43,579 bases of DNA from Bacteroidales bacterium Bact_19 (GTDB lineage: Bacteria; Bacteroidota; Bacteroidia; Bacteroidales; ML635J-15). The notes below the pieces were generated by a model. It did no database searches. It saw nothing but the letters and a program-made list of their open reading frames with translations, and was not told the origin of the DNA. The first letter of the stretch is position 1. Each line of letters opens with the position of its first letter. Location: positions 1 through 43,579 of the forward strand of contig LUZK01000084.1 of NCBI GenBank assembly GCA_001603595.1. The letters run 5' to 3'. Of the stretch, positions 24,084-41,524 are shown piece after piece. The translations under genes were made by a program, and so were the position numbers.

Positions 24084-25979
24084 TTATTGTTTAATAAATT
24101 TTTGAATTTCAATGTTTCCGTTTTTGTTAATTTTTATGAAATAAATTCCGGCTTCAAGTTCCGAAATGTTTACTATTATAGAATTGTCTGATAAATCAAT
24201 AGATTTAACAATCTGACCACAAATATTTGAAATCTCTATATTAGAAATAATTTCTTTAGAAAAAATATTTAAAATATCAGAAGCAGGGTTTGGATAAATT
24301 GAACTGATGGAGTTAATTTGATTTAAATTAGTAGTAGAGAAGAGTTTTTTAGTGTCGGCTTGCATAATTTCGGCAGTATTCATATTTTGGACAAAAGCGA
24401 CGAGTTCACAATTGTCAACATTATAAGATGGATCTATTTCTAATTCAAAAGAGTGATTATAAGTGCTTTGAGATGAAAAATTCAACAATAAACCGTTAGG
24501 ATTTGGATATAAGGCTCTGTTTACAAAATTTACTTTTGGTTGACTTTGCCATGAGTAATTAATATCGGTTTCGGTAAGAGCAATGAATAATCTCATTTCG
24601 TCGGAGTAATAGGGGAATGTTTCTTCAATGTCAACGCTGACATTAAATTTGTAAGGATTAGCAGAAATTTGCTGTGCATCAATAATAACATCGAAAACAG
24701 CAGGTTTTGCCATTAGTTCGTTGTAATAGTACAAGAAAGCATTTTTCATTGTTTGAACGTTTGTTGCAGTACCTTCATTACCATAAAATCCGTTAGTGAT
24801 AGTTGTTGGATAACCGAAACCATCGTTTTCAACATCAAAGAATGGGCGGTAATATAAATCCCTGGCATCAGTAGCAGGAGTAGAGAATTGATCAGGACCA
24901 AGTCCGTTACCGTGATATTCAATAATACCGACATTATATTGTTCGGCGGCGATTTGATCTAATGCTTGAGCTACGTAAGGACAATAAGGACAGTTAACAC
25001 TGGTGAAGACTTCGTAAACAACATATTTACGTGGAGTTCCACCGTCAATTGAAAGTTGAAGTGTTTGCGGAGCTGAATATCCGGAGCTAGTTCCATAGAA
25101 TGCTAATAAAGAATATGTATAGTTTCCGGGATAAACATTTAAATCAGTATAGGTGAGATTATTTATTCCGTTAGCAATAACAACACCATTTCGTGCAATA
25201 GAATAACTTTCGGGACTTCCTTGAGAAGGAGCATCCCAGGTTAAAACAACATCATTAAGGTTTTGAATTTGATATGAGAAGTTTTGTGGAGGATAAAGAG
25301 TTTCTACTTCTTCGATTAAAAAGTTATCCATGTAATATTCGGGAGTTCCGCCTTCATTCCATGCGTAGAAATCAAAAGCATCAAGTTTATTTATACCTGT
25401 GCCATCGTTGAAAGTTCCTTTACTCCACTGATAGGCATGAACAAGTTGATCGTTAATATAGAGGTCAACCCAGTCGCTGTTTAGGTCAATAAAATGTTGA
25501 ACTTTAATCCATTCTCCGTGATTAAAAGGTACTGTTGCAGCAGCAGCTCCAGCTCCATCAATAGTAATAGTTCCGTTTTTCATAAAGATTTGCATACCCC
25601 AAATCAAACCTTGACCTGATGGGTTGAAATTTTGCATTATGTTCCAGTATGCTTGTCGTCCTGTAGGAACATAAATATAAAATTCTACTCTATAACGCCC
25701 TGTTGTGAGATCATTAAATTCGATAACACCGTCAACGCTGCCTGAGACTTTAATTGATTTTGTACCACTGTAAGCATAAGTATCTGATACTTTTGGGTCT
25801 TCCGCTCCGCCGGGTTGACCACTCCAAGTATTCCACCAGGTTGTTTCCTGAGCAGCAATACCTTGCCCAACAGTATATGATTCAAAATCGTCAGAATATA
25901 AGACTTGTGCATTTAAAGCGAATGTAAAGCACGAAGCTAATAAAATTGTTACAAATAAAAAATGTAGTGATTTTTTCAT
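24084..25979 (-). CDS. T9SS-exported multidomain protein: lectin-like, FnIII, Omp28/thioredoxin-like and sorting domains
   Basis: It has 631 residues with a signal peptide ending near ALNAQ; an LASC lipobox-like run lies inside the signal but is an unlikely lipidation site. Residues about 27-225 look like a concanavalin/LamG-type beta sandwich (DDFESYTVGQG ... YYMDNFLIEEV). Residues 230-311 resemble fibronectin type III. Residues 316-540 match the Omp28-like family, with a thioredoxin-like CPYC pair at C330/C333 (TSVNCPYCPYVAQALDQIA). The last ~70 residues are a type A T9SS sorting domain (SIYPNPASDILNIF ... LEAGIYFIKI). It should be delivered to the cell surface by the type IX system. Substrate and redox role are unknown. 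Confidence 0.88.
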   Translation of the reverse strand: MKKSLHFLFVTILLASCFTFALNAQVLYSDDFESYTVGQGIAAQETTWWNTWSGQPGGAEDPKVSDTYAYSGTKSIKVSGSVDGVIEFNDLTTGRYRVEFYIYVPTGRQAYWNIMQNFNPSGQGLIWGMQIFMKNGTITIDGAGAAAATVPFNHGEWIKVQHFIDLNSDWVDLYINDQLVHAYQWSKGTFNDGTGINKLDAFDFYAWNEGGTPEYYMDNFLIEEVETLYPPQNFSYQIQNLNDVVLTWDAPSQGSPESYSIARNGVVIANGINNLTYTDLNVYPGNYTYSLLAFYGTSSGYSAPQTLQLSIDGGTPRKYVVYEVFTSVNCPYCPYVAQALDQIAAEQYNVGIIEYHGNGLGPDQFSTPATDARDLYYRPFFDVENDGFGYPTTITNGFYGNEGTATNVQTMKNAFLYYYNELMAKPAVFDVIIDAQQISANPYKFNVSVDIEETFPYYSDEMRLFIALTETDINYSWQSQPKVNFVNRALYPNPNGLLLNFSSQSTYNHSFELEIDPSYNVDNCELVAFVQNMNTAEIMQADTKKLFSTTNLNQINSISSIYPNPASDILNIFSKEIISNIEISNICGQIVKSIDLSDNSIIVNISELEAGIYFIKINKNGNIEIQKFIKQ

Positions 25980-26044
25980 AATTTTTGATTTTTAGGATTT
26001 CAGATACAATATTAAACAAATAAATAATATGGTAGAAAAAAATT

Positions 26045-28105
26045 TTATTTTTTATTTGTTAATCTACTTTTTGCAATATTAAGGTTTTGAATAATACTTT
26101 GATTTTGTGGGTCTAAAGCTAAAGCTTTTTCAAAATATTCCAGGGCTTTAAGGTCATTATTTTCAATACCGTAGGTCATTCCGATATATTTATAAACTTC
26201 GGCATCTTCCTTAATTCGGGCAGCACTCAAAAGGTTTTCTCTTGCATTGTTATATTTACCTATATTTCCATAGCTCACTCCCAGCCTGAAAAGAATATCG
26301 AAATTATTAGGATTCAGATTTTTTGCTTTTTCATAATACACTATTGCGGAATCGGCGTTTGCAATTTTGGAAAAATAATACAGATTACCAATTTCAAAAT
26401 ATGATAAGAAATACTCTGGAGCAGCTTTAGAAAATTCTATCCAAACTGATTTTTCATATTCGGGTTCGTCAACATTATAACTTAAAATCCCGTAAGCATT
26501 GTTCCAAATATCTGCATTTAAAGGTGTTTCATTGAGGGCTTTGATGTAATATTCAAATAGTTTTTTATAATCCCCGTATAATTTATAATATGCATTGCCA
26601 AGTCTGATAAGAGGTTCGCTGTAGTACGGATAAATTTCAATGGCTTTTTCGAAAAAAGGAATTGCTTCTTTGAGATACTTATTTCGTAATACTGTATCTC
26701 CTGCAGATTCAGCATCTTCGGATAGTTTGTAAAGTTCGCTGGCATAGGAACTATTTCCCTTGGCAGAGTTCTTGCTTGTTTTTAAGTCATTTGCAAATAA
26801 AGTAAGGTTATTTTTCCATACTGTATTACGCGATATTGTTTTGATCGAGAATAGCAATAAAATTATAATCGAAATAAAATAAGCACTTTTTATGTAATTA
26901 CTTGGGTTTTTAATCACTGAAGGTAATTTTTCTGTTAATACGTAAGCAACAATAATGCAAAAGCCCAATAAAGAAACGTAAACAAATCTTTCGCTCATAA
27001 AAGCTCCGATATTGAAAAATATATTTGAGGTAATTGAAAGTGTTATAGCGTAGAATAATATACCGAAAGAAAAAATACTTTTTTTACGAAATCCGTAAAT
27101 AGCAATAAATCCTAAAACTGAGTAAATTATTAAACTCAAAATAACTCTCCAGTCGGTCCAATTTACTAAGGTAATATGATAAGGATAGTAATCCCATGTG
27201 AGAGGATGCGGGAAAAACAAAAGTTTTAAATAAATTAAAAGTGTGAGGAATATAGTTGCATATTTTTGTGATATTGTGGCATAAAGAAACGGGTTATTCA
27301 TTAGTTGAGTAGCTTCAATAGAAGTTTGATCTTTCAGAACAACTGAGCGAATAAAAAGATATAAAGCTGCTCCTATGAAAGCCGGAATTGAAGCTATAAT
27401 GATCTTTCCGGGTTTGACATTTCTGAAAAAATAAATGCTTATGGGTATTATGGCAATAAAAGTAATGCTTGTCTCTTTGGACATTGATCCTAAAAAGAGA
27501 AATATACATGAATTAATAAGCTCTATGCTTTTATTTTTATCAATATAATTTATAACTGAATTAAGAGCTGCAATTGAAAACAAAAAAGCTAAAATTTCGT
27601 CGCGGCTTTTTATGTTAGCAACAATTTCGGTATGCAGGGGGTGAGCCGCAAAAAGCAAAACAGAAATAAATGGAATATTTATCCATTTATGATTTGAAGG
27701 GTAATTCTTAAAAAGTTTGCAAAGAACATTATAAAGAATAAGTAAAGAAATACAATACAACAATATGTTAAAAAAATGGCTCAACCCCGGACTCCCTTTA
27801 AATGGGGCTTTAGCAGATAGATCCGTAGTTTCTTTACCAAAAAACTCGACTTCCAAAGCGAAAGTTATTAAAGATAGAGGTCTATATCTGCCACCTTCGA
27901 GTTCTTTGCTGTCTTTCCCGAACATTCCGGCAAAAGAATCGTATGCTAAAATGTCCGGAATTCCGTCAATTCCTTTTTGAACAAATTCATTTTTCCAGTA
28001 AGTGGCTTTGTCGTCGAGAGCGTACTTGTGCCCGATGGTATTGGCATACAATAAAAAAGCAAAAACAAATATTATTATTTTTTCAATATTTGATGGGAGC
28101 TTCAT
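26045..28105 (-). CDS. TMTC-like polytopic membrane protein with C-terminal TPRs, putative glycosyltransferase
   Basis: It has 686 residues from the ATG at 28105. The frame extends to 28333, but MKLPSNIEKIIIFVFAFLLYANTI is the natural start before the first membrane helix, and the extra 76 residues would run across the divergent rplY promoter. The first ~470 residues are polytopic. They include the acidic pair in YALDDKATYW, GGRYRPLSLITFALE and AAHPLHTEIVANIKSRDE, all typical of the TMTC/PMT-like GT-C group. The C-terminal ~210 residues contain about four to six TPRs (for example AIEIYPYYSEPLIRLGNAYY). By family, a protein O-glycosyltransferase is plausible, but the substrate is unknown. TATTTTTC at 28122-28129 (minus strand) is a one-mismatch -7 element. 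Confidence 0.8.
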   Translation of the reverse strand: MKLPSNIEKIIIFVFAFLLYANTIGHKYALDDKATYWKNEFVQKGIDGIPDILAYDSFAGMFGKDSKELEGGRYRPLSLITFALEVEFFGKETTDLSAKAPFKGSPGLSHFFNILLYCISLLILYNVLCKLFKNYPSNHKWINIPFISVLLFAAHPLHTEIVANIKSRDEILAFLFSIAALNSVINYIDKNKSIELINSCIFLFLGSMSKETSITFIAIIPISIYFFRNVKPGKIIIASIPAFIGAALYLFIRSVVLKDQTSIEATQLMNNPFLYATISQKYATIFLTLLIYLKLLFFPHPLTWDYYPYHITLVNWTDWRVILSLIIYSVLGFIAIYGFRKKSIFSFGILFYAITLSITSNIFFNIGAFMSERFVYVSLLGFCIIVAYVLTEKLPSVIKNPSNYIKSAYFISIIILLLFSIKTISRNTVWKNNLTLFANDLKTSKNSAKGNSSYASELYKLSEDAESAGDTVLRNKYLKEAIPFFEKAIEIYPYYSEPLIRLGNAYYKLYGDYKKLFEYYIKALNETPLNADIWNNAYGILSYNVDEPEYEKSVWIEFSKAAPEYFLSYFEIGNLYYFSKIANADSAIVYYEKAKNLNPNNFDILFRLGVSYGNIGKYNNARENLLSAARIKEDAEVYKYIGMTYGIENNDLKALEYFEKALALDPQNQSIIQNLNIAKSRLTNKK

Positions 28106-28172
28106 AAATTGAAATTTTTGCGAAAAATAATAAAATGATTTTAAAAACTTGAAAATTAAAGAAAAGATAATT

Positions 28173-28202
28173 TTGAAAATAGGAAAGAATTTAATAATTT
28201 TG
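28173..28202 (+). promoter_or_regulatory. Candidate promoter of the rplY-pth-psd operon
   Basis: A TTG at 28173-28175 and TAATTTTG at 28195-28202 are separated by 19 bases, matching both elements of the Bacteroidota promoter consensus (TTG, 19-21 bases, TAnnTTTG). Initiation about 7 bases downstream would leave a leader of about 65 bases before rplY. Confidence 0.65.
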
Positions 28203-28229
28203 CGGGCTGAATGTCGAACGTGTGATGGG

Positions 28230-28248
28230 GCTTCCGAAGTTTCGGAGC
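28230..28248 (+). promoter_or_regulatory. Hairpin in the rplY 5' leader
   Basis: GCTTCCGAAGTTTCGGAGC can fold as a 7-bp stem (GCT and CCGA paired with TCGG and AGC) with one bulged T and an AGTT loop. It lies between the predicted transcription start and the rplY start codon. There is no T run after it, so it is not a terminator. It could be a ribosomal-protein leader structure, but this is inference. Confidence 0.4.
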
Positions 28249-28275
28249 TTAGTAGCACAAAAAAAATTATTAAGT

Positions 28276-28851
28276 ATGAAACATTTTGAATTGATTGTTG
28301 AATTAAGAGAAGATTTAGGAAAAAAAGCCTCACAAAAGTTGAGAAAAGAAAACAAAATTCCGTGTGTATTATACGGTAATGGCGAAAACTTACATTTTTT
28401 CGTAACCGAAAATGCAGTAAGAAAACTTGTTTACACTCCGGAAGTTATGTTTGTAGATTTAAGAATTGGAGATAGCATGAAATATGCTGTTTTAAAACAA
28501 ATCCAGTTTCATCCGGTAAGTGATAAAATTATTCACATTGATTTTCAGGAAATTACAGAATCAAAGCCTGTTTCAATTCATATTCCGTTAAAAATAACAG
28601 GAAATTCTCCCGGTGTGAGGGCAGGTGGTAAGCTCAAACAAAACATGCGTATGATTGGTGTTAAAGGTTTAATGAAAGATATCCCCGATTTTTACACTGT
28701 TAGCATAGATGAATTGAAAATAGGAGATTCGATAAAAATTAAGGATTTGCAATCAGAAACTCTGGAATTCACCGATAACAAAAACAGCTTTGTGGTATCG
28801 GTATTGGCAACAAGAGGAGCTTCAGCTGCCGGTCAAGATGCAACTGAATAA
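28276..28851 (+). CDS. rplY: Large ribosomal subunit protein bL25 (CTC-type, long form)
   Basis: Ribosomal protein that binds 5S rRNA. It has 191 residues from the ATG at 28276 (MKHFELIVELREDLGKKASQ). A longer frame from 28222 is open but has no family support, and its first codons form the leader hairpin. The N-terminal ~95 residues are the L25 domain (KKASQKLRKENKIPCVLYGNG), followed by the TL5/CTC C-terminal domain (VSIHIPLKITGNSPGVRAGGKL). This long form is usual in Bacteroidota. It is followed 17 bases later by pth, a common pairing. Confidence 0.95.
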   Translation: MKHFELIVELREDLGKKASQKLRKENKIPCVLYGNGENLHFFVTENAVRKLVYTPEVMFVDLRIGDSMKYAVLKQIQFHPVSDKIIHIDFQEITESKPVSIHIPLKITGNSPGVRAGGKLKQNMRMIGVKGLMKDIPDFYTVSIDELKIGDSIKIKDLQSETLEFTDNKNSFVVSVLATRGASAAGQDATE

Positions 28852-28868
28852 TATCCTTTAATAATTTT

Positions 28869-29432
28869 ATGAAATATCTTATAGTAGGATTAGGAAATCC
28901 CGGCGAAAAATATAAAAATACACGACATAACATAGGATACAAAGTGCTGGACTTTCTTGCTGAAAGTGCCGGCATTTCTTTTTCTGATAAACGTTATGCC
29001 TATGTTTCAGAGATGAAGCATAAAGGCAAAACTTTAATTCTTGTAAAACCAACTACATACATGAATTTGAGTGGTAAGGCTGTAAATTACTATTTACAAG
29101 CAGAAAAAATTCCCATTGAGAATTTAATGGTAGTTGTGGATGATATATCTCTCGAAATTGGGAAAATTCGCATCAAAGCAAAAGGAAGTAGCGGTGGACA
29201 TAACGGACTACAAAATATTCAGGATATACTTGGAACCGTAAATTATAATCGTCTGAGATTTGGTATCGGCAATAATTTTTATCAAGGCGGACAGGTAGAT
29301 TATGTTTTAGGAGAATGGACAGATGATGAGCTAAAAATTTTGCCCGAGAGAATAGTGATGGCTGCAGAGGCAATTAAAAGTTTTCCCCTTATCGGAATTG
29401 ACCGTACAATGAATTTTTATAATAACAAGTAA
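28869..29432 (+). CDS. pth: Peptidyl-tRNA hydrolase
   Basis: Frees tRNA from peptidyl-tRNA dropped off ribosomes. It has 187 residues. The N-terminal motif MKYLIVGLGNPGEKYKNTRHNIGY contains N10 and the catalytic H20. YMNLSG near 64-69, the aspartate in VVVDDISLEIGKIR near 88-101, and GSSGGHNGLQNI near 107-118 complete the active-site set. The stop codon TAA shares its last base with the ATG of the next gene, so psd is translationally coupled. Confidence 0.97.
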   Translation: MKYLIVGLGNPGEKYKNTRHNIGYKVLDFLAESAGISFSDKRYAYVSEMKHKGKTLILVKPTTYMNLSGKAVNYYLQAEKIPIENLMVVVDDISLEIGKIRIKAKGSSGGHNGLQNIQDILGTVNYNRLRFGIGNNFYQGGQVDYVLGEWTDDELKILPERIVMAAEAIKSFPLIGIDRTMNFYNNK

Positions 29433-30232
29433 TGCCACAAAAACAAAATTATAGAAATTTTGCTTCCAGAATTGCCGGTTATATTTCGAATGTTAAGAGG
29501 CCTCGGTTTTTTGTGAAGTTTTTGATTGCATTATTTCGACTTTTTTATCGCATAAAACTCGATGAATACATTGTTTCCGAAGGGGGGTTCGTGAGTTTTA
29601 ATGATTTCTTTACTCGAAAAATAAAAACGCAGTGCAGACCTTTAAGTGATGCAAAAATAATTTTTCCTGTTGATGGTAAGATTGTTGATTATGGGATTAT
29701 TGATAATGAGAAAAAGATTTTTGTAAAACATAAATTTTATTATTTGGAGGATTTGATATCTGATAGTCATCATCTTAATTATAAATCATATATAATACTT
29801 TATTTGTCTCCGCGGAATTATCATAGGGTTCATTCTCCGTTTAAGTGCAAGATTAAAAACGTTAGTTATTTTCCCGGAACTCTTTTTTCTGTAAGGAACA
29901 AAACTATAATGAAGCGTGATAGCGTGTTTTGTCGCAACGAGAGAATTGTAATTAATGGGGTATCCGAAAACGGTAATTTTTGTTTAGTGATGGTAGGTGC
30001 AATAATTGTTGGTAAAATAAAATTATCTTTCGACGATGAAATTCAAACTAACATAAAAAAGGGTAGCCATGTACAAAAAAACTACAATTCCGAGATAGTA
30101 ATAGATAAAGGAGAGGAACTGGGACTTTTTGAATTGGGTTCGACAGTAATTTTATTGATGGAGGATGATTCGTTAAATAAAGTTGTGAAATCGAAAAATT
30201 CTGAAATCAAAATGGGCGAAGCGATTATTTGA
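29432..30232 (+). CDS. psd: Phosphatidylserine decarboxylase proenzyme
   Basis: Converts phosphatidylserine to phosphatidylethanolamine at the membrane. It has 266 residues. The type I layout is visible: FVSFNDFFTRKIKTQCRPL at about 53-71, the aspartate of FPVDGKI (D81), LSPRNYHRVHSP (H131/H134) and the self-cleavage motif LGST at 235-238, where S237 becomes the pyruvoyl group. The small alpha chain would be about 30 residues, as usual. It is the last gene of the rplY-pth-psd unit, and the accessory island begins after its stop. Confidence 0.92.
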   Translation: MPQKQNYRNFASRIAGYISNVKRPRFFVKFLIALFRLFYRIKLDEYIVSEGGFVSFNDFFTRKIKTQCRPLSDAKIIFPVDGKIVDYGIIDNEKKIFVKHKFYYLEDLISDSHHLNYKSYIILYLSPRNYHRVHSPFKCKIKNVSYFPGTLFSVRNKTIMKRDSVFCRNERIVINGVSENGNFCLVMVGAIIVGKIKLSFDDEIQTNIKKGSHVQKNYNSEIVIDKGEELGLFELGSTVILLMEDDSLNKVVKSKNSEIKMGEAII

Positions 30233-30281
30233 AAATTTTGAAGCCATTTAGTTTTTCTGTAATAATATTTTATGTTTTTTT

Positions 30282-30331
30282 CTCTGTGATGAGTTGTTTT
30301 TTTTACACCGATGGCACAGAGTTGCACAGAG
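30282..30331. repeat. CTCTGTG / CACAGAG inverted repeat, possible interspersed element
   Basis: CTCTGTG at 30282-30288 is complementary to two copies of CACAGAG at 30315-30321 and 30325-30331. It lies 50-100 bases past the psd stop. Similar CACAGAG-rich intergenic pieces are familiar from several bacterial genomes, but I cannot tell whether this one is repeated in this genome. It may also act as a weak stem-loop at the end of the psd message. Confidence 0.4.
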
Positions 30332-30343
30332 GTTATTAGTTGA

Positions 30344-30403
30344 TTATTTCTCTTCCGTTAGTTCAAGCAATCCATAAGTCCAATTATCCTGCCAATCTGT
30401 AAC
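30344..30403 (-). pseudogene. Possible short remnant of a second restriction-type gene 3' end
   Basis: Read on the minus strand, this is open between a TGA and a TAA and encodes VTDWQDNWTYGLLELTEEK. Its ending, YGLLELTEEK, resembles the YSLYELTEEE end of the methyltransferase at 31575-35042 and of its truncated copy at 30706-30903. With fewer than 20 codons this could be coincidence, but it lies in line with the other tail copies on the same strand. Confidence 0.25.
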
Positions 30404-30460
30404 TCATGTACCTAAAATTATGATAACTTAAATGACAATTTTTATTTATTAAGAAAATTT

Positions 30461-30661
30461 TTTTATCCGATTTATGTCAATATATATAGTTGTTATTCAA
30501 GTGATTAAGTGTTCTTATTGTTTTTTGTCAATAAAAATGGCTTGTTTTTACCCCCGATTTCTGTCAATAAAAGTGTTTGATATTCAATGTTTTTAGATTC
30601 TTTTTATTTTTTTTTGTCAATAAAAATAGAACTTTTTTACCCCCGATTTCTGTCAATAAAA
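30461..30661. repeat. Tandem repeat of about 89 bp, two good copies and one degenerate partial copy
   Basis: Two 50-base units, 30523-30572 and 30612-30661, are nearly identical at both ends and differ mainly in the middle. Each opens with TTTTGTCAATAAAAAT and closes with CCCCCGATTTCTGTCAATAAAA. They are 89 bases apart with AT-rich spacers between them. A degenerate closing half lies 87 bases earlier (about 30461-30485, CCGATTTATGTCAATA). The core TGTCAAT (TTGACA on the other strand) therefore occurs five times, at 30475, 30526, 30562, 30615 and 30651. The spacing is too irregular for a CRISPR array and no cas genes are present. Confidence 0.8.
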
Positions 30662-30705
30662 TATTTACGGAAATGATTTTTTTCAAAATGCTCATTTCCC
30701 ATTTT

Positions 30706-30903
30706 TTATTCTCCTTCTATTATTTTTACCTCCTCCTCCGTTAATTCATACAGCGAATATACTAAATTATTTATTTCTTTTTCTAATTGGCTCGTATCTG
30801 CTTGGGGATTGGATTTTTTTGCTGACAAAATTTTATCTACTAATTCCTCTATTTGTGTAACTATGGGCTGGTTGGAGGAGGTGATGGAAAGAGAATTATA
30901 GAA
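30706..30903 (-). pseudogene. Truncated second copy of the methyltransferase 3' end
   Basis: Encodes a 65-codon tail (NSLSITSSNQPIVTQIEELV ... SLYELTEEEVKIIEGE) homologous to the C-terminus of the methyltransferase at 31575-35042. The last ~130 bases and the first bases past the stop (30692-30825) are almost identical to 31561-31694. Toward the gene's interior the two copies diverge (SITSSNQPIVTQ here versus PITASNQGIVKQ). There is no start and no methyltransferase body. It is in frame with the four-helix-bundle gene directly before it, separated only by that gene's TAA, so it may be the remains of a second, different methyltransferase allele. Confidence 0.85.
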
Positions 30904-31473
30904 TTATTTTTTATTACTTCTATTATCCTTTCTTAATTTATACATCCTTTCTGTAAATCCACCTTCTTTCAAAAAAATTTCTTCAAGTTTTCTTTTTTGT
31001 TGGTCAAGTAAATAATTTGTTTGGTGTATAATGCAAATGATGGTATTTGCTGCTACTTCTTCAGGTGAGTTTTCTATATAGGTCTCATATGACATATATG
31101 ACTTATTTTCTTCCTTTCCTATCTTTCTAATCTCTAAAACTTTTGGATCATTTTTATCCCAGAGTTTTAAATTTCTTTGCCTTAAAAAATCCTCATAGTC
31201 TTGTAATAACTCTTCGAGGCTAGCCCTGGCAATGCCAATAAGTTTAAGCTCTATTTTCTTTGAAGTGCCAGAGGCCATGCTACCCTCTACTATATTCTGT
31301 TTACCACTCCTGGCAGCCTGAACCATCTGGTCAAAAGTTCTTGAACGCTTGTCTATAAAACGTTCACAAAACCTTACTGTGGCATCATAAACAATCTCTG
31401 ACATTTGATACGACATTAGTTTTCGGTAACCACCATGTGGTGGAATGAGGTTGTTATTTGCTTTATCGGACAT
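30904..31473 (-). CDS. Four-helix-bundle protein with 'suffix' domain (23S rRNA intervening-sequence-protein-like)
   Basis: It has 189 residues. The start MSDKANNNLIPPHGGYRKLMSYQMSEIVYDATVRF leads into a bundle with SRTFDQMVQAARSGKQNIVEGS and a third and fourth helix (GIARASLEELLQDYEDFL, then NTIICIIHQTNYLLDQQKRKL). This matches the S23/IVS four-helix family with the C-terminal suffix variant, which is often met beside restriction-modification genes and other variable loci. Its molecular function is unknown. It lies about 100 bases after the methyltransferase stop and is flanked on both sides by copies of that gene's 3' end, which marks it as an inserted or recombined cassette. No -7 motif is seen before it, so read-through from the methyltransferase is likely. 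Confidence 0.88.
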   Translation of the reverse strand: MSDKANNNLIPPHGGYRKLMSYQMSEIVYDATVRFCERFIDKRSRTFDQMVQAARSGKQNIVEGSMASGTSKKIELKLIGIARASLEELLQDYEDFLRQRNLKLWDKNDPKVLEIRKIGKEENKSYMSYETYIENSPEEVAANTIICIIHQTNYLLDQQKRKLEEIFLKEGGFTERMYKLRKDNRSNKK

Positions 31474-31560
31474 AACTAATAGTTCATATTGTTATTTATG
31501 CCGTTTATTAATTCTACCAGTTTGACCATCGATTCTTTTTATTCATCATCTGTAAATTGT

Positions 31561-31755
31561 TCATTTCCCATTTTTTATTCTCCTTCTATTATTTTTATCT
31601 CCTCCTCCGTTAATTCATACAGCGAATATACTAAATTATTTATTTCTTTTTCTAATTGGCTCGTATCTGCTTGGGGATTGGATTTTTTTGCCGATAAAAT
31701 TTTATCTACCAATTCCTCGATTTGCTTTACAATGCCCTGATTGGATGCGGTGATG
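31561..31755. repeat. Direct repeat, intact-gene copy of the duplicated methyltransferase tail
   Basis: This segment is repeated at 30692-30885 in the same orientation. I see one mismatch in roughly the first 130 bases and then rising divergence. After each methyltransferase stop a tiny frame begins with MGNE(H/Q)F: 31571 to 31539 here and 30702 to 30637 in the other copy. The original duplication therefore reached past the gene end. The two copies flank the four-helix-bundle gene. Confidence 0.9.
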
Positions 31756-34700
31756 GGGGGAAGAGGGATTTCTTTAACCGTATCTTTTGTCAATGAAAGC
31801 CCTTTTGTTCCTAAATTTGAACTCTTATTTCTTATAAACCATTGCGATACTTTTGAATTTAAAAGAGAATTTATTAAAAAGGGCTTATTTGTTATGATCA
31901 TAAAACATGTTTTTTGTAAATACATGTCAGATAGAACAATAACAGTATTGAGGGATTGATCTGTTTCAGCCCACACCACCTTCTCCTTCTCAAATTCGGG
32001 GTAGTAGGCAATTTGGTCTTGAGTTTCAAACCATTTATTACCCGTTTTTTTGCGTGCATCAAATCCTAATTCTGGATATTTTTTCCCTGATTGCTCTAAC
32101 TGTCTTATATCAAAATTATCAAGGAAATATTTTTTTATAGCAGGATAATCATCAATATTTAGATGCAATGCCGGAAAAGTTCCTATCACCCACAGCCCAG
32201 CCCAATCGTAATAATACCGTTTAATATCTCTTCCTCGCAAAATGGGTTTAATAATGGCTTCGGTACGTTTTCGCTCGGATGCTGAGCTTGTCGAAGCATC
32301 ATCTTTACAATTTGCCAGTATCTCGTTTCGCTTTTCGGTGGTGATGATAAAGGCTTCATTAAGTCCGGTTAATACGCCACGATAGATTTTTACATCCCAC
32401 TCCTTTAAGGGTTTACCTATACTTTCAATCTTTTCTTTTAGCTTTTGTTCAGCACTACTCCCAATAAACCAGGCATCGTTGGTAAGTTTTTCTAAAATAA
32501 CGGCTTCCTTTTCTAAAACCTCCGAAATTGTTTTGTTTTTGTCGGTATAAGTTATGGCTTTTAATTGATTTTTGTTTTTTGCTTTTTGAATAAGCAGGAT
32601 ATTGGTATCGACCGTTGCACTTTCAAATATACCGGGTCCAAGGTCAATAAGGAGAAGTGGATTCTGATTTATAAAGAACTGGCGGAGTTTTTCGCCATAG
32701 CCTGCTCGCATCCATTTGTTGGAAGTGATATAACAAAGCGTGCCATTTTCTTTTATAAGTTCTATGCCTTTTTCATAAAATAGGGTGTAAATATCGCCTG
32801 TGCGAGCAAAGGTTTGAAAATTTTTTGATTCATACATCTTTGCAAGTTTGCCTCCATCTTTTTGTAGCTGAATATACGGCGGATTGCCAATCACGATATC
32901 AAACCCTCGCTTATTATTGTCAGGTATTAAATAGGGGTTGAGCACTTCGGGGAAGTCGAGTTTCCAGTCGAAGTGGTTAAAGTGTTCATCGGGATGTTGA
33001 AGCATTTGTTTCAATTTGCTAATAAGTTTATCAAAACCTGCAATTTGCAATTCCCGTTCGGTGTTGTGTTTTATATCGGCAGCCGTTGGCATAAATCCAC
33101 CTTTTTGGGGTGTTTTATCAATATATGCCAATTTGTTGTAAGAAAGCTGGTTAATCAGCAATTCAATTTTCAGGTTGCGGATTTCTGCCTGTAATTTTTT
33201 CTTGTTCGTGTTGTTGGGGCTAAAGTAGTTCTTTTGCTTGTCGGCAACTTCTACCAGCAAACGCTGCACATTCTTTACATATTCATCGGCTTTGCCTACA
33301 CTTTGTTTGCGTTCCCAGTCAATCTCTACAATTTCGTCATCAAACTTGCTTATCAAGCTATCGCCCACCACAATTTTATAATCGAGGTTAGGCAGGGCTC
33401 TGGGTTTTTCTTCGTCCACCACCAAACTAAGCCAGAATCGCAGGCGGGCAATATCCACCGCACCTTTTTCAATGTCCACCCCGTAAATAGAGTTCTGTAT
33501 AATGTTCAGTTTGGTTTCGGCAGGGTTCCATTGCTTGCCGGTTTCGTAAGCAATGAGTTCTTTGATGCTGAAAATTTCTTGCAATAAGCCCATGGGAAAA
33601 GCACCGGAGCCGATGGCTGGGTCGCAGATTTTTACACGATCAAGGGCTTTTTCCACTTCGGCAATTTCGGGTTTTAAAATATTATCAACCACTTTATTTT
33701 TAAGCAACTGATTTATAGCTTCCCGTTTGGCAACTTCGGAGTTAATCTGCAAAGTGTTACACAGGTATTCCGATAAACTTTCCTGACACATATAGTGGAC
33801 AATTTCTTTTGGTGTGTAAAAAGCACCTTTATCTTTGTTGTCTTCGAGGAGGTTCTCAAAAATATGCCCAAGCATTTCGGGGTCAACGGCAACGGTGTGG
33901 TCATCGGGGCTATCTTCGTAAACGGTAAAATTGAAAGCATCTAAAAAATCAAGAAAGCCACGGGCGTTATTTTTGTTTTTTTCGGTAAGAGGAAAATCTT
34001 CAAAATCGGGGTTATGAAAAAGCTTTGCAGGAAAAGTCAGCAACTGTTCGTCAAACTCTTCTTTGTCGAATAATCCACCATTCAGGTAAGGAACTTTTAC
34101 CGTTTTCCCATCGGGCATTTTAAAATCATCGTTAGGTCTTTCCTTGTTTAATGTATCAAAGAAAAGCACCGTTAACCAGTTACTATAAAAAGCATCGTTG
34201 CCGCCCGATTGAAGAAATAGCTGTTTAATGAAATCAGTCATTCCATCGGTATATTGGGTATTGCTTGCACCTAACCAACCCTTTTTCTGAACGAAGTATA
34301 GAAATACAATACGTCCGAGCAGTTTTTTTACAAAATCGCGGATGGGTTTGCTGGCTTTATCCTTTTCCTGTTTTGTAGCACCTTCAGGAAATGTAATATT
34401 GAAAACGGATTTACGGTAATTGGACTCCTGCAGATAATCGCAAAAGTTTTGGTAATGCAGGGTGTATTCGTCAAAGAATGCTTTGCTGAGTTTTTCAACG
34501 GAGAAAGCATTGACAAGCGTTTGAAAAGTAATTTCCTTTTCGGTGCTTAGCGTTTCGAAGCGTTCAGCGGCAGTTTTACAGGTTTCCGAAGGGCCTAATA
34601 AAAACGTATATCGTTTGGCATTGGTGGTTTTTTCTTTTACGCCTTTTTCGGTAAGCACGCTGTCTTTGGCAACCAATGTAAGCCTCCATACATTTTTATT

Positions 34701-35042
34701 TGCAGGTGCGACGAAATTAATCAATGCAGCTTGTCCGGCTGTAAGCAGTTTTCGAACATATTGCTGTATAGCTACCTTGCTTTGTTCGATGCGCACTTTG
34801 GGTTGTAACAGTACTTCGTAGCAGGTAATTTCGGTGCTATCGTCCAATTGAATTTTTCCGTAAACCCAAACGTTGGCAATTGCAGCCGATTCCGATTTGT
34901 TGGGAGAGACCGATGCCGGAACCAAAGAGGAATTAAGTGTAAATCCGGAACCAAAAACCGGACTTAAAACTTCACGAGAAAACAAAACCCTGTCGTAAGG
35001 TTTGTGTAAAGCGTTTTGTAATTGAATTCTATTGGCTGCCAT
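31575..35042 (-). CDS. Large PglX/Eco57I-like adenine-specific DNA methyltransferase (restriction-modification type)
   Basis: It has 1155 residues. An N-terminal region of ~400 residues precedes the methyltransferase core: GAFYTPKEIV at 406-415, SAM motif DPAIGSGAF at 474-482, catalytic NPPY at 720-723 (FDIVIGNPPYIQLQ) for N6-adenine methylation, then a TaqI-like target-recognition region (about 860-1100, RGVLTGLNEAFII, LRGRDIKRYYYDW). The last ~60 residues are helical (IEELVDKILSAKK ...). No nuclease motif is evident in this protein. It begins 2 bases after the helicase/PLD gene, so the two are translated together as a defence-like pair. Residues ~915-922 (DASTSSAS) come from an inserted palindrome. 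By eye, base composition is less AT-rich than the dcw genes, which would fit transfer. Confidence 0.9.
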   Translation of the reverse strand: MAANRIQLQNALHKPYDRVLFSREVLSPVFGSGFTLNSSLVPASVSPNKSESAAIANVWVYGKIQLDDSTEITCYEVLLQPKVRIEQSKVAIQQYVRKLLTAGQAALINFVAPANKNVWRLTLVAKDSVLTEKGVKEKTTNAKRYTFLLGPSETCKTAAERFETLSTEKEITFQTLVNAFSVEKLSKAFFDEYTLHYQNFCDYLQESNYRKSVFNITFPEGATKQEKDKASKPIRDFVKKLLGRIVFLYFVQKKGWLGASNTQYTDGMTDFIKQLFLQSGGNDAFYSNWLTVLFFDTLNKERPNDDFKMPDGKTVKVPYLNGGLFDKEEFDEQLLTFPAKLFHNPDFEDFPLTEKNKNNARGFLDFLDAFNFTVYEDSPDDHTVAVDPEMLGHIFENLLEDNKDKGAFYTPKEIVHYMCQESLSEYLCNTLQINSEVAKREAINQLLKNKVVDNILKPEIAEVEKALDRVKICDPAIGSGAFPMGLLQEIFSIKELIAYETGKQWNPAETKLNIIQNSIYGVDIEKGAVDIARLRFWLSLVVDEEKPRALPNLDYKIVVGDSLISKFDDEIVEIDWERKQSVGKADEYVKNVQRLLVEVADKQKNYFSPNNTNKKKLQAEIRNLKIELLINQLSYNKLAYIDKTPQKGGFMPTAADIKHNTERELQIAGFDKLISKLKQMLQHPDEHFNHFDWKLDFPEVLNPYLIPDNNKRGFDIVIGNPPYIQLQKDGGKLAKMYESKNFQTFARTGDIYTLFYEKGIELIKENGTLCYITSNKWMRAGYGEKLRQFFINQNPLLLIDLGPGIFESATVDTNILLIQKAKNKNQLKAITYTDKNKTISEVLEKEAVILEKLTNDAWFIGSSAEQKLKEKIESIGKPLKEWDVKIYRGVLTGLNEAFIITTEKRNEILANCKDDASTSSASERKRTEAIIKPILRGRDIKRYYYDWAGLWVIGTFPALHLNIDDYPAIKKYFLDNFDIRQLEQSGKKYPELGFDARKKTGNKWFETQDQIAYYPEFEKEKVVWAETDQSLNTVIVLSDMYLQKTCFMIITNKPFLINSLLNSKVSQWFIRNKSSNLGTKGLSLTKDTVKEIPLPPITASNQGIVKQIEELVDKILSAKKSNPQADTSQLEKEINNLVYSLYELTEEEIKIIEGE
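32278..32300. repeat. REP-like palindromic insertion inside the methyltransferase coding sequence
   Basis: GATGCT (32278-32283) and AGCATC (32295-32300) are perfect inverted arms around GAGCTTGTCGA. A second, nested pairing, GCTT with AAGC, is possible. The core GCTGAGCTTGTCGAAGC is a sequence I recall as a common interspersed repeat in Bacteroidota and cyanobacteria. It is read in frame as DASTSSAS, between ILANCKD and ERKRTEAIIKPILRGRD. Confidence 0.7.
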
Positions 35043-35044
35043 AT

Positions 35045-38000
35045 TTAACTGAAACTTTGAGTTAATACAATTTGAGGATTTACAATTCCCCTGTGTGCTT
35101 TTTCTGATTGAGGTATTTCCTCGGAACTGGTAGAAAGCTCGTATCGGTCGAGAACGGTAATAAATAATTGTTCAATAAACTTATCCGGCTCTTTAAGCAA
35201 GCCTGAATTAGAGGTAAAAAAATCGTTGATTGATTTTGGTAATCCCTTCGATGCAAAAGTTCCTTTTTTGATAATGTCTAAAGCCCGAAGTAATACCATT
35301 CGTTTTTGTTCGGTAGGTGCATGTTTTATCACTGCATTGAGGTTTGTAATGGCTTTGTTTTCGGCAGGGCTGAGGTTTCTGCGGGAGACTGACTGAACAT
35401 TTTCCTGATTTTTTTCCGATTTAAAATATTCAAGAGCTGCCAGTGTTTGTTTATGGTGTAATTCGTGCAAGGCAATGGCTTTTTCTGAATCAGTAGCTTT
35501 AAACAACTTTACTGCCTGTAAGAAATTCAACTCAATAATATTCAATTCGGGAGTAACGAGGCAAAATATACCGGGATGATTTTCACTTTTCAGATAAGTA
35601 AGAGATGTTTTCTTTAATGGATAATTTATCTCTCCAGTTTCTGTATCAATTAATTCGAGTTGTTTACCAGAGGGTATCTTTCTACCACACCTTGCTTTGT
35701 TTGGAGTTTTGGCAATATCGTTAAATATCTTTGGATGCTTCTTTCGGAAATCTCTTAATTCATTCAAATACTTAAGAATTTCGCTTTCCTCTTTTTGAAT
35801 TTTATGTCCAAATAAAGCTCCTTCTCCTTTTTCTTCGAGAATAGAAAATACCTTGTTATCTTCACCAAAAGCTGTATGAAATGCCTGAAGTTTACGCAGG
35901 GCGTTGTTTACCAAATGAATTTGAGCATCGCCATGGGCAGATGGATAATAGTTGTAAACATAGATTCTGTCGGCTCTTGAACCGATGCGGTTTACCCGAC
36001 CGATGCGTTGCATTAAACGGGTAGAGTTCCATGGAACATCATAGTTAACAATTACGTTGCTTCGATGCAAGTTGATGCCTTCTGCCAGTACTTCCGTAGT
36101 AACAATAATATCGTAATCATTTTGCCACTTTTCTTCTTCGAGGTTTGCATCGAAATTATTACGAATAGTATTTTCTAAATTTTTTCTATTTTCGGCACTT
36201 ACCGTAAGGACCTTTTTCTTTGTAATCTTTGAAAGTTTTGCCGTTAATTTTTCAGCAGTTTCTTTTGATTCGGAAAAAATTACCAGTTTGCCACTTATAT
36301 TTTGTTCGGGTTTAAAAAATTCTTCCTGAATTTGTTTTGCAAACTCCATCAGTTTTGGGTCCTTCTTTACTTTGTTCCATCGTTCAATTAAATCGTCCAC
36401 TTTTTCTTTATCCTGTTTAAGTAAAGCAACAAATTTTTTATCAAAGGCATCTTTTTTATACTCCTTATTATTTCCGCCTTTTTCGTTGATTTTAGCTTCA
36501 ATTTCGTCATAGCTTAATCCTTCTTCGAGCAATTTGTTGATGTCTAAATCAGGTGCAATAAAAATCCTGTTATCATCAAACATTGCCAGCATATTATCAA
36601 TGGCTTTCTGAAATCTCGATAATGATTGAGTAAAAGCATAAAAACTACTTTCAAGGCGTTTTACCAAAAGTGTTTTCATGATGGCGGATAACCTTCCTGA
36701 TATGGATTCTACATTGCCATATATTTTTCTGTCTTCCTCTTTAACAAGAAATTCAATGGCACGGTAGCGGTAATATCCTAAACCGTCAGTTTCGTTACCA
36801 TTTTCATCAAGGCTAGTAATGAATGAAACTGTATCATAAAACAGTTTGCTTAATTTTTTATCCAATTTATAGTAAAGAGGAATGGGGTCGCCCACTTTTG
36901 GGAATTTAATTTCCTGTTTATTCAGGTCTTCCAAATATTCCTTGTTGTTCTCAATATCAGTCCTTGTTCTGCGAATAACAAGTGGCTCCACTACATCATC
37001 ACGTAATTTCTGGAATAGTGCTTTGAGTTTCTTGATATTCAGTTTTTTCTCGTAAGCCAGTTTTTTATACTGCTCATTGATTGGTTTGAAATATTCCTGT
37101 AAGTTTCTGATATTTTCGAGTGTGCTATTTCTCCTGTCCTGAAACAGGTAAAGTTGGTTTTCGATATCCTGGGGCCGGTTATTCAAAGGTGTTGCCGAAA
37201 TGAGAATGACTTTTTTGCGAGTGTCACCATTTTCAGAGGGGCGGCTTCTTGGTTTTTTGCAAATTTCCTGTAATTTCAGATACATATCGGTGTAATCATT
37301 TCTGAATTTATGTGACTCATCAACAACAATTAAATCAATATCTTCAGGGTTAGGGTACGAGTAGTTATTTCGGTCAAGTATTTTGTGCAAGCTACCAAGA
37401 GTGATGAAAGTAAAATGATTATCGAGCTCAAAATCTTTTACTGTCCGTCTCCAGCTTTCCTCAATGGCAGGTGGAACAACAACCAAAACCTTTGTATGAG
37501 TCCCATTTTCATAAATGAACTTTTTAATAACCATACAAGCAATAATTGTTTTCCCCAAACCAACGACATCAGCCAGAATAAAACCATTATGCTTCATCAT
37601 TATAGCATACCCTTGATTGGCAGCATCGGATTGGTATTTTAAGCGTATGTATTTGGGAGGTAAAAGCAAGTCAATATTGTAGGGATCATAATCTACTCGT
37701 TTGCCAAAATATTCAATTAACATTTTAATATATAGCTCAAACGGAGAGAAATTATCCCTTAAATATGTCTGATTCTTAATTCTCTCTGCATCTGCCTGTA
37801 AAATGGGAACCGATTCATCCCAAAGTCGTTCAAATTCATCTGTAGCAAATTTTACATCTTCATAATCTCGCAAACTAACATTAAACTCATAATTAGACTC
37901 AGGATTAACACCAAGACCGGCATCAGTTAGATTAGATGAACCGGTAATTACTTCACAAGGGGCATATTCATTAAAATTAGCAGGCCTGAAGATATAAACC

Positions 38001-38404
38001 TTTGCATGTATTTTCTTTTTGGGATGAGCCCTCAATTCAATTTTTTCGTTAACTAAATCATCAATGAATTGTAGGATCCCTTTTTCTGTAGCTTCATCGT
38101 AGTTGGCTTCCTGAATATTTTTTATGATTTCTTCGAGGAATTCCGCTTTTGTTTCATCGGTATTCTCAAGATAAAGTTGTCCTCTGTCGTGATATTTTTT
38201 TATTAATTGATCAACATTAATACCAACTAAAATTCTGATTTTTGGAATCTTTTCGAGAAAAGGACGTACTTTAAAATAACCCGATGCTCTGAAATATCCA
38301 ACCAAAGCATCAAAATGACGAATGCTTTCGATATTTGTAAATACTCCCTCAAACTTTTTAAGTAAACTGTTATTGCCTTGATTTGTAAAAAACTTTGTTG
38401 GCAT
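35045..38404 (-). CDS. PLD-nuclease-like / SNF2-type helicase fusion of a restriction-like system
   Basis: It has 1119 residues. The N-terminal ~200 residues form a phospholipase-D-like domain with IHAKVYIF (H133, K135), GSSNLTDAG (155-163) and NYEF near 171; the aspartate of a full HKD motif is not obvious. The SF2/SNF2 helicase follows, with Walker A GLGKT at 282-286, DESH at 362-365, SATPLNN at 403-409, and near the C-terminal third TTEVLAEGINLHRSNVIVNYD and QRIGRVNRIG. The likely role is ATP-driven translocation on unmodified foreign DNA coupled to PLD-type cleavage, with the adjacent methyltransferase marking self DNA. It lies 24 bases after the XRE gene and 2 bases before the methyltransferase. 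Confidence 0.9.
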   Translation of the reverse strand: MPTKFFTNQGNNSLLKKFEGVFTNIESIRHFDALVGYFRASGYFKVRPFLEKIPKIRILVGINVDQLIKKYHDRGQLYLENTDETKAEFLEEIIKNIQEANYDEATEKGILQFIDDLVNEKIELRAHPKKKIHAKVYIFRPANFNEYAPCEVITGSSNLTDAGLGVNPESNYEFNVSLRDYEDVKFATDEFERLWDESVPILQADAERIKNQTYLRDNFSPFELYIKMLIEYFGKRVDYDPYNIDLLLPPKYIRLKYQSDAANQGYAIMMKHNGFILADVVGLGKTIIACMVIKKFIYENGTHTKVLVVVPPAIEESWRRTVKDFELDNHFTFITLGSLHKILDRNNYSYPNPEDIDLIVVDESHKFRNDYTDMYLKLQEICKKPRSRPSENGDTRKKVILISATPLNNRPQDIENQLYLFQDRRNSTLENIRNLQEYFKPINEQYKKLAYEKKLNIKKLKALFQKLRDDVVEPLVIRRTRTDIENNKEYLEDLNKQEIKFPKVGDPIPLYYKLDKKLSKLFYDTVSFITSLDENGNETDGLGYYRYRAIEFLVKEEDRKIYGNVESISGRLSAIMKTLLVKRLESSFYAFTQSLSRFQKAIDNMLAMFDDNRIFIAPDLDINKLLEEGLSYDEIEAKINEKGGNNKEYKKDAFDKKFVALLKQDKEKVDDLIERWNKVKKDPKLMEFAKQIQEEFFKPEQNISGKLVIFSESKETAEKLTAKLSKITKKKVLTVSAENRKNLENTIRNNFDANLEEEKWQNDYDIIVTTEVLAEGINLHRSNVIVNYDVPWNSTRLMQRIGRVNRIGSRADRIYVYNYYPSAHGDAQIHLVNNALRKLQAFHTAFGEDNKVFSILEEKGEGALFGHKIQKEESEILKYLNELRDFRKKHPKIFNDIAKTPNKARCGRKIPSGKQLELIDTETGEINYPLKKTSLTYLKSENHPGIFCLVTPELNIIELNFLQAVKLFKATDSEKAIALHELHHKQTLAALEYFKSEKNQENVQSVSRRNLSPAENKAITNLNAVIKHAPTEQKRMVLLRALDIIKKGTFASKGLPKSINDFFTSNSGLLKEPDKFIEQLFITVLDRYELSTSSEEIPQSEKAHRGIVNPQIVLTQSFS

Positions 38405-38428
38405 TACTTCTTTTTTTTTAAAAATTAA

Positions 38429-38707
38429 TTAATTAATGACTTCGTCCATTATATTTTCTAAATACTCTAAATTACAATAAGTTACATTTATACTCTCGGT
38501 TAATAAACGAACTTGAAGTTTTTGGGAACCATTTTTCAGAATTTGGCTCAAAATCTTTAAATAATCATTTGACATTAGCCTTTCTCCATGTTCAACCTTA
38601 CTAAAAGATGAAGTATCAAGGTCAAGTTGGGCTACTACTTTTCTATGAGTAAGATTTCTGTGTTTTATTAACCGTTTGCTATATCCTCTAAAAGTCTCTT
38701 TTGTCAT
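38429..38707 (-). CDS. XRE-family HTH regulator, probable controller of the restriction-like operon
   Basis: It has 92 residues. The helix-turn-helix covers about residues 8-62 (YSKRLIKHRNLTHRKVVAQL, DTSSFSKVEHGERLMSNDYL), the Cro/C1 type. Small XRE proteins with the S-KVEHGER recognition-helix pattern often head restriction-modification operons as C proteins that delay restriction until DNA is protected. It is the first gene of the minus-strand unit, with a -7 element 29-36 bases upstream of its start and the helicase gene 24 bases downstream. Control of the downstream genes is inferred from position. Confidence 0.85.
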   Translation of the reverse strand: MTKETFRGYSKRLIKHRNLTHRKVVAQLDLDTSSFSKVEHGERLMSNDYLKILSQILKNGSQKLQVRLLTESINVTYCNLEYLENIMDEVIN

Positions 38708-38735
38708 TTAACTAATCTGTTTTGGATAATTGTGT

Positions 38736-38743
38736 CAAATATA
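38736..38743 (-). promoter_or_regulatory. Candidate -7 promoter element of the restriction-like operon
   Basis: On the minus strand this reads TATATTTG, matching TAnnTTTG, within an AT run. The XRE start codon lies 28 bases downstream. Between the two lies GACACAATTATCC, with only imperfect symmetry, so no operator is claimed. Confidence 0.5.
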
Positions 38744-38904
38744 TATATAATTTTTTTTATGGTATTATATGAGAATGAAAATTTGAATTTATGAAAAACT
38801 TTGGATTATATGTTGATTTGTGTATTGTATGATAAAATTCTAAAAGAGAGCTTACGAAAAATTAAATCAATATTAAATATAATAAAAAAATGAACTAATA
38901 CAAT

Positions 38905-38995
38905 TAGCTGGTTAGGAAAAGTCTCAGCATACGGGGGGCGTATCGAGAGGGGTATCGAGAGTACATCGACAATCTCCGTATAGCAGCCAAAGCCC
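38905..38995. other. GC-richer block with nested inverted and direct repeats, possible structured RNA or mobile-element remnant
   Basis: ATACG at 38929-38933 can pair with CGTAT at 38939-38943 over a G5 loop. Alternatively ATACGGGG (38929-38936) can pair with CTCCGTAT (38974-38981), which includes one G-T pair. Between the arms TATCGAGAG occurs twice, 12 bases apart (38941 and 38953). The block stands out against ~75-80% AT flanks. No coding frame of useful length crosses it, and strand and function are undetermined. Confidence 0.5.
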
Positions 38996-39155
38996 GATTA
39001 TGTTGGATTTTAGGTAAATTTTGGATTTTATAATGCTGAATTTTGGTTAAAAATTTGCAGTTAATTAAAAAATAAAAGATATAACTAAGATTACTATTAT
39101 CTAATTATCTTTAAGTTTATCAAAAATTTTATAAAATCTTTGTTCATTAAATAAA

Positions 39156-40682: not shown

Positions 40683-40706
40683 TGATTTTGTAATTTTCGT
40701 TTCTTT

Positions 40707-40714
40707 CAAATTTA
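40707..40714 (-). promoter_or_regulatory. Candidate -7 promoter element of dnaB
   Basis: On the minus strand this reads TAAATTTG, matching TAnnTTTG, 24 bases before the ATG at 40682. It overlaps the alternative ATG at 40709, which argues against that start. No clear -33 element is seen. Confidence 0.5.
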
Positions 40715-40851: not shown

Positions 40852-40866
40852 CATAAATATATTTTT

Positions 40867-41523: not shown

Positions 41524-41524
41524 T

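Follow-up and report, generated by a model that had tools for sequence, protein, structure and literature searches.

The 3' ends of type IIG-like methyltransferase genes are probably a recombination hotspot at which accessory genes are gained and exchanged, and a four-helix-bundle gene of a Bacteroidales genome would be one of the cargoes; we give this reading a probability of roughly 0.7. The gene was found in the window, as we call the whole stretch of 43,579 nucleotides analysed here (one contig of a 186-contig genome). It lies between two direct copies of a methyltransferase 3' end, the tail, and the copy lacking a methyltransferase is termed the orphan. In this phylum and in Ignavibacteria, the conserved last ~40–60 codons of such methyltransferase genes would form the joint, with recognition domains swapped on its 5' side and accessory, often defence-like, genes gained and swapped on its 3' side. 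Cargo would arrive with a new methyltransferase 3' part, pushing the resident 3' end behind the cargo, where it would stay as a 5'-truncated orphan still joined to its old neighbour. In the window, the whole island would then have been inserted as a unit, with host genes that look by eye like psd and dnaB on its two sides.

At the level of alignments, the recurrence and direction of orphan tails, the variety of the cargo, the displaced end at its old neighbour, the junction of recognition domain and cargo, and the empty site are established. The evidence spans species and loci, and no strain pair shows the exchange step itself. The arm length, the variable start points and the mosaic alignments lead us to infer that homologous (RecA-type) recombination over 60–200 bp drives the exchange. 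The model leaves the first origin of the cargo-plus-tail unit unexplained.

Two methyltransferase ends around a four-helix-bundle gene

The features of the window are as follows.

30233..39155, no strand: whole inserted restriction island (orphan tail, four-helix gene, methyltransferase, helicase, 92-aa ORF)
30480..30705, minus: probable Schlafen/AlbA_2 gene remnant, behind the orphan tail
30685-30887, minus: orphan tail; open frame 30706-30903 reads through SITSSNQPIVTQIEELVDKIL to IIEGE and a stop
30904..31473, minus: four-helix-bundle gene with C-terminal suffix domain, 189 aa, the cargo
31554-31756, minus: methyltransferase-borne tail, PITASNQGIVKQIEELVDKIL to IIEGE and a stop; 3' end of the methyltransferase ORF
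31575..35042, minus: type IIG-like Eco57I methyltransferase, 1155 aa; TaqI_C recognition domain at residues 932-1094, then the tail
35045..38404, minus: PLD-SNF2 helicase/nuclease (PF13091, PF00176, PF00271; PADLOC HKD+Snf2, 1.9e-41)
38429..38707, minus: 92-aa ORF, by eye like a helix-turn-helix regulator, without a family match

The methyltransferase matches PF07669 (1.6e-41) and PF12950 (2.1e-9), both over their cut-offs, and the PADLOC model REase_MTase_IIG (3.8e-222). Its single polypeptide combines an Eco57I-type methylase core with a C-terminal recognition domain, the arrangement that defines type IIG, and its N-terminal part matches DUF7814 alone, under that family's cut-off. Judged by these domains, it resembles a type IIG restriction enzyme-methyltransferase, with nuclease activity predicted at most. 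The adjacent PLD-SNF2 protein is its probable partner.

As originally predicted, the tail is duplicated in direct orientation on both sides of the four-helix gene. The copies at 31554-31756 and 30685-30887 align without gaps and agree at 187 of 203 nt, and the orphan repeats the last 60 methyltransferase codons plus the stop (30706-30887) downstream of the four-helix gene. The accompanying claims also hold: the peptides differ near the recognition region (PITASNQGIVKQ versus SITSSNQPIVTQ), and the downstream copy has no methyltransferase body and continues in frame from the four-helix gene across a single TAA. The orphan, a direct copy open for 65 codons, starts inside the tail and lacks the recognition domain. 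Readthrough of this TAA into a four-helix/tail fusion was considered and set aside: the frame permits it, but one in three frames would do so by chance. Tail fusions without a stop are found elsewhere, at L031 (with DUF3644) and L270.

Alignment of the two tails, which had been proposed as a check, gives a graded pattern with mismatches mostly on the 5' side. Thirteen of the 16 mismatches fall at alignment positions 8–64; there follow 93 identical nucleotides (the longest block), one change (I to V) and 37 more identical nucleotides, which extend beyond the stop and give way to two changes after it. The split of 13 mismatches in the first 66 nt versus 3 in the last 137 nt has a Fisher p of 4e-5 with the cut picked post hoc, and permutation over all cuts gives p = 0.0045.

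Such a repeat could have arisen by plain local tandem duplication of the 3' end, with the four-helix gene inserted between the copies and the orphan decaying unevenly. A single difference in the 117 nt leading up to the stop, and identity that passes the stop, are what this account would have, but the coding differences at codon positions 1, 2 and 3 number 4, 2 and 9, a weak sign that they arose during protein coding. With the comparisons from other loci given below, we consider this origin quite unlikely.

Same-strand self-comparison of the window (E 1e-6) returns two direct repeats, of which the tail pair is the stronger. The other consists of two 108-nt copies, 81% identical, at 30467-30661 behind the orphan, with the motif TTTTATTGACAGAAATCGGGGGTAAAAA; as a genome-wide repeat this region yielded one weak second match (32 nt) in its own genome. 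The same motif and layout stand behind the AlbA_2 gene of the Ignavibacteria locus L281. Between the methyltransferase stop and the four-helix start, 31474-31574 holds a short broken frame that reads MGNEQFTDDE, a stop, KESMVKLVELINGINNNMNY and another stop. Its first residues reappear behind the orphan tail as MGNEHF, and it is perhaps the start of a gene that once stood behind both tails.

Graded divergence and recognition-domain exchange

The gradient was originally taken to exclude a simple recent duplication. The view that the repeat is no plain recent tandem duplication is supported, but the gradient alone is no proof of this, and graded divergence was dropped as evidence of recombination because other methyltransferase pairs show the same pattern. 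The tails of L161 and L162 are 94% identical over the last 117 nt versus 79% in the preceding 66 nt, and the methyltransferase bodies of L172 and L175 agree at 87–92% of nucleotides in seven successive segments and at 80% in the eighth. In pairs of related methyltransferases from different genomes, similarity is lost over ~300 codons 5' of the tail (40–42% nt) and returns in the last 40 codons (85 and 92%). On these alignments the tail appears to be the conserved 3' arm of recognition-domain exchange, which makes graded divergence ordinary between two alleles, and the difference between PITASNQGIVKQ and SITSSNQPIVTQ seems to be of the kind expected between them. Since methyltransferases of different genomes are equally graded, the gradient by itself shows no special event.

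The 5' ends of the two tails were also compared with four outside tails. The first 66 nt (22 codons) of the methyltransferase tail are nearest to L031 (54/66) and L281 (53/66), and those of the orphan, barring the window's own copy (52/66), to the L283 methyltransferase (51/66). This gene, from the Ignavibacteria genome that also carries L031 and L281, ends in ITSSNQPIVSQIEELVDKIL (ITSSNQPIVSQ), one residue off the orphan there, so the 5' part of the orphan looks like a natural allele, which speaks against tandem duplication. That the tails of different alleles meet at their conserved end, another element of the original prediction, is upheld by these separate affinities.

The same prediction saw in the repeat a possible means of swapping target specificity; the orphan would then be a cassette that donates sequence to the expressed gene by recombination. 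Recognition domains are swapped against a conserved body and tail in this methyltransferase family, and exchange with the tail as 3' arm does occur in other genomes. Yet the recognition domain is absent from the window's orphan and from the other short orphans, and recombination between direct copies would delete the four-helix gene and leave the recognition domain unchanged. The orphan supplies no second recognition domain of the kind that defines a shufflon, normally with inverted repeats or a recombinase. A specificity switch at this site is very unlikely, and the orphan makes better sense as a scar left by cargo gain.

Elsewhere, at L148, L149, L262 and L263, an inverted partial methyltransferase (114–221 aa frames) stands behind a type IIG-like methyltransferase. 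In L149, L262 and L263 (175–221 aa), a serine recombinase look-alike (by eye) lies beside the inverted part, a layout that a switching mechanism could use. These four loci are probably invertible specificity switches.

Recurrence of orphan tails

Searching 395 genomes of the phylum for the tail turned up 77 matches of methyltransferase size (open frame of at least 500 aa); 67 of them were examined. Those left out were G158:C46, G300:C94, the 534-aa frame of G419:C5, G129:C71, G293:C150, G056, G130, G091, G050 and G172; two of these ten loci (L148 and L149) carry an inverted partial methyltransferase. A tail profile detects a second copy on the same strand within 6 kb downstream at 11 of the 67 loci, with at least 6 kb of downstream sequence covered for 60. 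No copy was found on the opposite strand at the 67 loci, and none was seen upstream, where at least 1 kb was covered for 16. Searching by tblastn with each gene's own last 62 residues finds the tail again downstream, on the same strand, at 14 of the 67 loci. Six of the 67 (L141–L143 and L145–L147, all among the 77) had first been picked for a visible second tail match. Equally long control windows taken from these genes gave 1/789, and the ends of other genes of at least 400 aa in the same loci 3/130. L146, L171 and L186 are among the 14 by tblastn alone, L171 weakly, and the remaining 53 loci have no downstream copy. The tail copy is therefore not confined to this strain, and the expectation that tails recur around inserted genes in other genomes is borne out.

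Two family-wide searches found a short-frame tail downstream, on the same strand and within 6 kb, for 9 of 27 and 6 of 41 methyltransferase-sized frames; the first overlaps the 67 loci at G154, G363 and G146, the second at G266, G178 and G293. Single-contig genomes (G266, G154) and a chromosome whose record is titled complete (CP054675.1) also carry orphans, so misassembly cannot account for them as a class.

All 11 profile-found orphans are open for at most 65 codons, while their source genes mostly have about 1000–1280 codons; the breaks thus lie in the tail. Orphan 5' ends lie at varying distances ahead of the LVY motif, from about 0 to 122 nt. Short-frame orphans number 44, which is not a frequency, since a short second match was the reason for choosing many of the loci. 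A gene precedes 40 of them, and 26 of these 40 begin between -60 and +100 nt from its stop, a range into which 15.8% of 1813 random points fall. The variable 5' ends would suit homology-facilitated illegitimate recombination, anchored in the methyltransferase on the left and randomly joined on the right, as would the identical DNA that L282 shows on its left side only. Random joins should leave longer remnants too, and the uniformly short frames make this route rather unlikely. At L145, L260 and L264 an orphan follows the methyltransferase with no gene of at least 75 aa between, a layout that plain tandem duplication could give.

Cargo between the tails

The genes enclosed by tails differ from locus to locus.

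L141: HAD hydrolase
L142: RhuM
L146: DUF1016/YhcG nuclease
L147: unnamed protein and DUF559
L181: AAA and DUF3644
L186: DUF3800
L188: HipA-like kinase and unnamed protein
L259: unnamed protein; IrrE-type peptidase
L189, L207, L177: unnamed proteins

Ten cargo proteins were compared with PADLOC: four matched strongly (PDC-S02, S05, S06, S19), one marginally and four not at all, and the HipA-like cargo matched PDC-M66A (3e-17); we take the prefix PDC to stand for phage-defence candidate. The names psd, dnaB, HNH, OLD/UvrD, AbiE, HEPN, ASCH, Fic, serine recombinase, REP-type transposase, DUF3800 in L157 and helix-turn-helix were assigned by eye.

Tails can also bound genes in series. L259 has the order methyltransferase, cargo, tail, IrrE cargo, tail; in L269 one gene is flanked by two tails. 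In L031, a locus of a complete Ignavibacteria genome, the array runs DUF3644 fused to a full tail, AAA_13, a tail remnant, another gene, the four-helix gene, DUF2851 and a decayed tail, and its four-helix gene is bounded by a partly decayed tail (~3319-3420) and a frameshifted one (~6319-6390). The claim that the gene between the tails is a linked module finds support here, with the four-helix gene in a second tail-bounded setting. A tentative extension would make methyltransferase 3' ends the attachment sites of a putative integrase-free cassette system: tail-carrying genes would insert beside them, stack into cargo-tail arrays and move between loci and phyla by tail recombination, with the modification gene both anchoring a store of defence genes and providing the homology arm. 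It is possible, though we would not bet on it; the hotspot reading is the one followed below.

Probable direction of gain and the proposed joint

In L207, a 224-aa gene stands directly behind the methyltransferase, and in L188 its homologue sits behind the orphan tail. The L188 orphan aligns with L207 over 249 nt (79%), through tail and stop into the next gene, and with its own methyltransferase over 114 nt. The orphan is therefore best read, from these alignments, as what remains of an L207-like methyltransferase whose end was displaced, the kinase cargo having entered on the methyltransferase side. Tandem duplication fares poorly here, as the orphan fits another allele's end and old neighbour better than its own gene.

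The joint itself may be visible in the genus g92, where 8 of 12 genomes match the anchor gene and five loci carry the methyltransferase; L222, L223 and L224 have anchor genes and no methyltransferase match of at least 60%. The five species share the same two genes beyond the variable cargo, and the methyltransferase bodies of L165, L172, L175 and L221 are each 94.6–95.9% identical in amino acids to that of L171. The L171 recognition domain is that of L172 (99.7% aa), the other three having no similarity there, and its cargo is that of L175 (92–97% aa across three genes). Close similarity of L171 and L172 stops within the last 20 codons. The simplest account of this mosaic is a crossover at the tail that would have joined the L172 recognition domain to the L175 cargo.

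At L156 and L282, a tail stands behind the cargo although the methyltransferase ahead of it lacks one of this type; in L156 a DUF3800 gene and a tail follow a methyltransferase of another kind. Duplication of the present gene cannot give a tail that lies solely behind the cargo.

The restriction island, its empty site and Ignavibacteria counterparts

The sister species G025 (L255) lacks the whole island of 8.9 kb: its sequence aligns at 88.4% to 25678-30235 and at 90.6% to 39157-41639, with nothing in between. The genes that flank the island are also neighbours in G004 (L256) and G012 (L257). As the island is absent from all three genomes, the arrangement was most likely made elsewhere. The island ends show no convincing terminal inverted repeats or target duplication.

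A counterpart lies in the same complete genome as L031, at L281, where the methyltransferase end is 69% identical in nucleotides to the window's over 1.3 kb. The order there is methyltransferase end, transposase-like remnant, orphan tail, AlbA_2 gene, repeats, and the four-helix gene of the window occupies the place of the transposase-like remnant. Behind the window's orphan, the probable AlbA_2 remnant consists of what looks like a gene start and a gene end, with ~1.57 kb missing in between, followed by the repeat region: 30854-30663 aligns at 72.6% to the L281 orphan tail and gene start (6215-6411), and 30672-30480 at 71.9% to the gene end and beyond (7978-8170), the matched gene being SLFN_AlbA_2. 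The two layouts resemble each other apart from the cargo, so the same kind of site holds different cargo in the two genomes, although the assignment is not clear-cut.

The two tails of the window are 98% alike over the last 130 nt and those of L281 65%, which calls for later conversion or crossover between the window copies. Both window tails are closer to the L281 orphan (72–73%) than to the L281 methyltransferase (63–64%); the methyltransferase tail with its flank reaches 70.6% to that orphan, near the 72.6% of the window's orphan. Judging from these identities, the window copies have probably recombined since.

L281 and L282, in one Ignavibacteria genome, are 100% identical in nucleotides over ~1.35 kb (the helicase end and DUF1016-like genes) and diverge in the methyltransferase after this shared part. 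The pair, which mixes recent identity with old divergence, can be read as recent recombination or duplication between paralogous loci.

The four-helix gene and its relatives

The four-helix protein matches TIGR04258 (79.8 bits, cut-off 40) and TIGR02436 (28.1 bits, cut-off 24), and PF05635 at 26.4 bits, below the gathering cut-off of 33.8. Its predicted structure (model pLDDT 89.8) finds no solved fold by Foldseek at E 0.001; 2gsc ranks first (E 0.044), and 2rld of the S23 family fourth (E 0.42). There is no match in PADLOC. A putative defence or accessory role in the island is inferred.

The special association of this gene with methyltransferase tails that had been predicted is not supported: of the TIGR04258 places in 395 genomes, the window's alone is near a tail match, and among the best 80 relatives in genome contigs one is (L031). 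The latter, in a complete Ignavibacteria genome, is the closest relative among the matches listed (80% aa). A partnership with the window methyltransferase was likewise rejected: relatives within the window's own family (f1) are scattered, and 29 of their loci viewed with ~1.5 kb of flank each held no methyltransferase match. Carriage by phages or plasmids was also discounted, with 128 pattern matches and no relatives in viral contigs, and one relative in 72,556 plasmid records, on a 568-kb Prevotella replicon.

Could the four-helix gene instead be a mobile element that targets gene ends, as the genes of 23S rRNA intervening sequences might suggest, the tail copy being a by-product? The family is scattered, with at most six TIGR04258 matches per genome, and at several of the 80 loci the gene is flanked on either side, within ~200 bp, by palindromic or direct repeats. 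Against this, relatives lie mostly away from methyltransferase ends, tails flank many unrelated cargos, and viral contigs and plasmid records together hold one relative, so this explanation is very unlikely.

Four-helix genes of other phyla at L073, L075, L077, L082, L084, L086, L088, L090, L092, L093 and L101 have such repeats on both sides within ~200 bp, as if they were small repeat-bounded units. In the window's genus, at L004–L008, L010, L011 and L017, the four-helix protein lies within open frames of 576–602 aa; in L004 it is N-terminal and continues into an ArgK/MeaB-type GTPase look-alike (by eye).

Relation to known systems

A 2024 preprint by Payne et al. reportedly describes defence genes embedded in restriction-modification loci ("guilt by embedding"); we know of no settled account of how such genes become embedded. 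The four-helix gene lies within a restriction locus and so belongs with candidates of this kind, the likeness being accessory, often defence-like genes inside or beside a restriction locus. In type I loci, passages of two papers describe embedded genes, for example between hsdS and hsdR (PMC12255303, PMC12629846). Here, in contrast, a type IIG-like gene has the cargo at its 3' end, with copies of this gene end as the boundaries, a feature that those passages do not mention.

Exchange of recognition domains between conserved arms is shared with recombination-driven type I hsdS switching (phasevarions), as portrayed in parts of PMC7394358; that switching needs a second recognition domain and inverted repeats, whereas the window has a direct tail without a recognition domain. 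The S23 four-helix proteins of 23S rRNA intervening sequences (PMC4990558) are of the same family and fold as the cargo protein. The window gene differs in lying behind a methyltransferase gene, outside any 23S rRNA gene, and in carrying the TIGR04258 suffix.

The serial layout of the tail arrays recalls another system. Integron cassette arrays line up genes in one direction beside a fixed anchor gene, with a boundary sequence after each. The tail boundary differs in being a coding gene end with a variable start, and orphan starts that vary between loci do not amount to a fixed recombination site.

A literature search, whose scope excluded preprints and most subscription journals, found no paper on methyltransferase-end copies around defence genes; as far as this search shows, what is new lies in the tail scars and arrays.

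Implications

Orphan tails offer a footprint that can be searched for in any genome and that would mark each event. The footprint would give direction, with new cargo by the methyltransferase and the old neighbour behind the orphan, and let candidate defence genes be listed without relying on known families. It also makes testable whether a conserved gene end of ~120 bp suffices for cargo swap. If the cassette reading is true, the modification gene would serve as the anchor for a store of defence genes.
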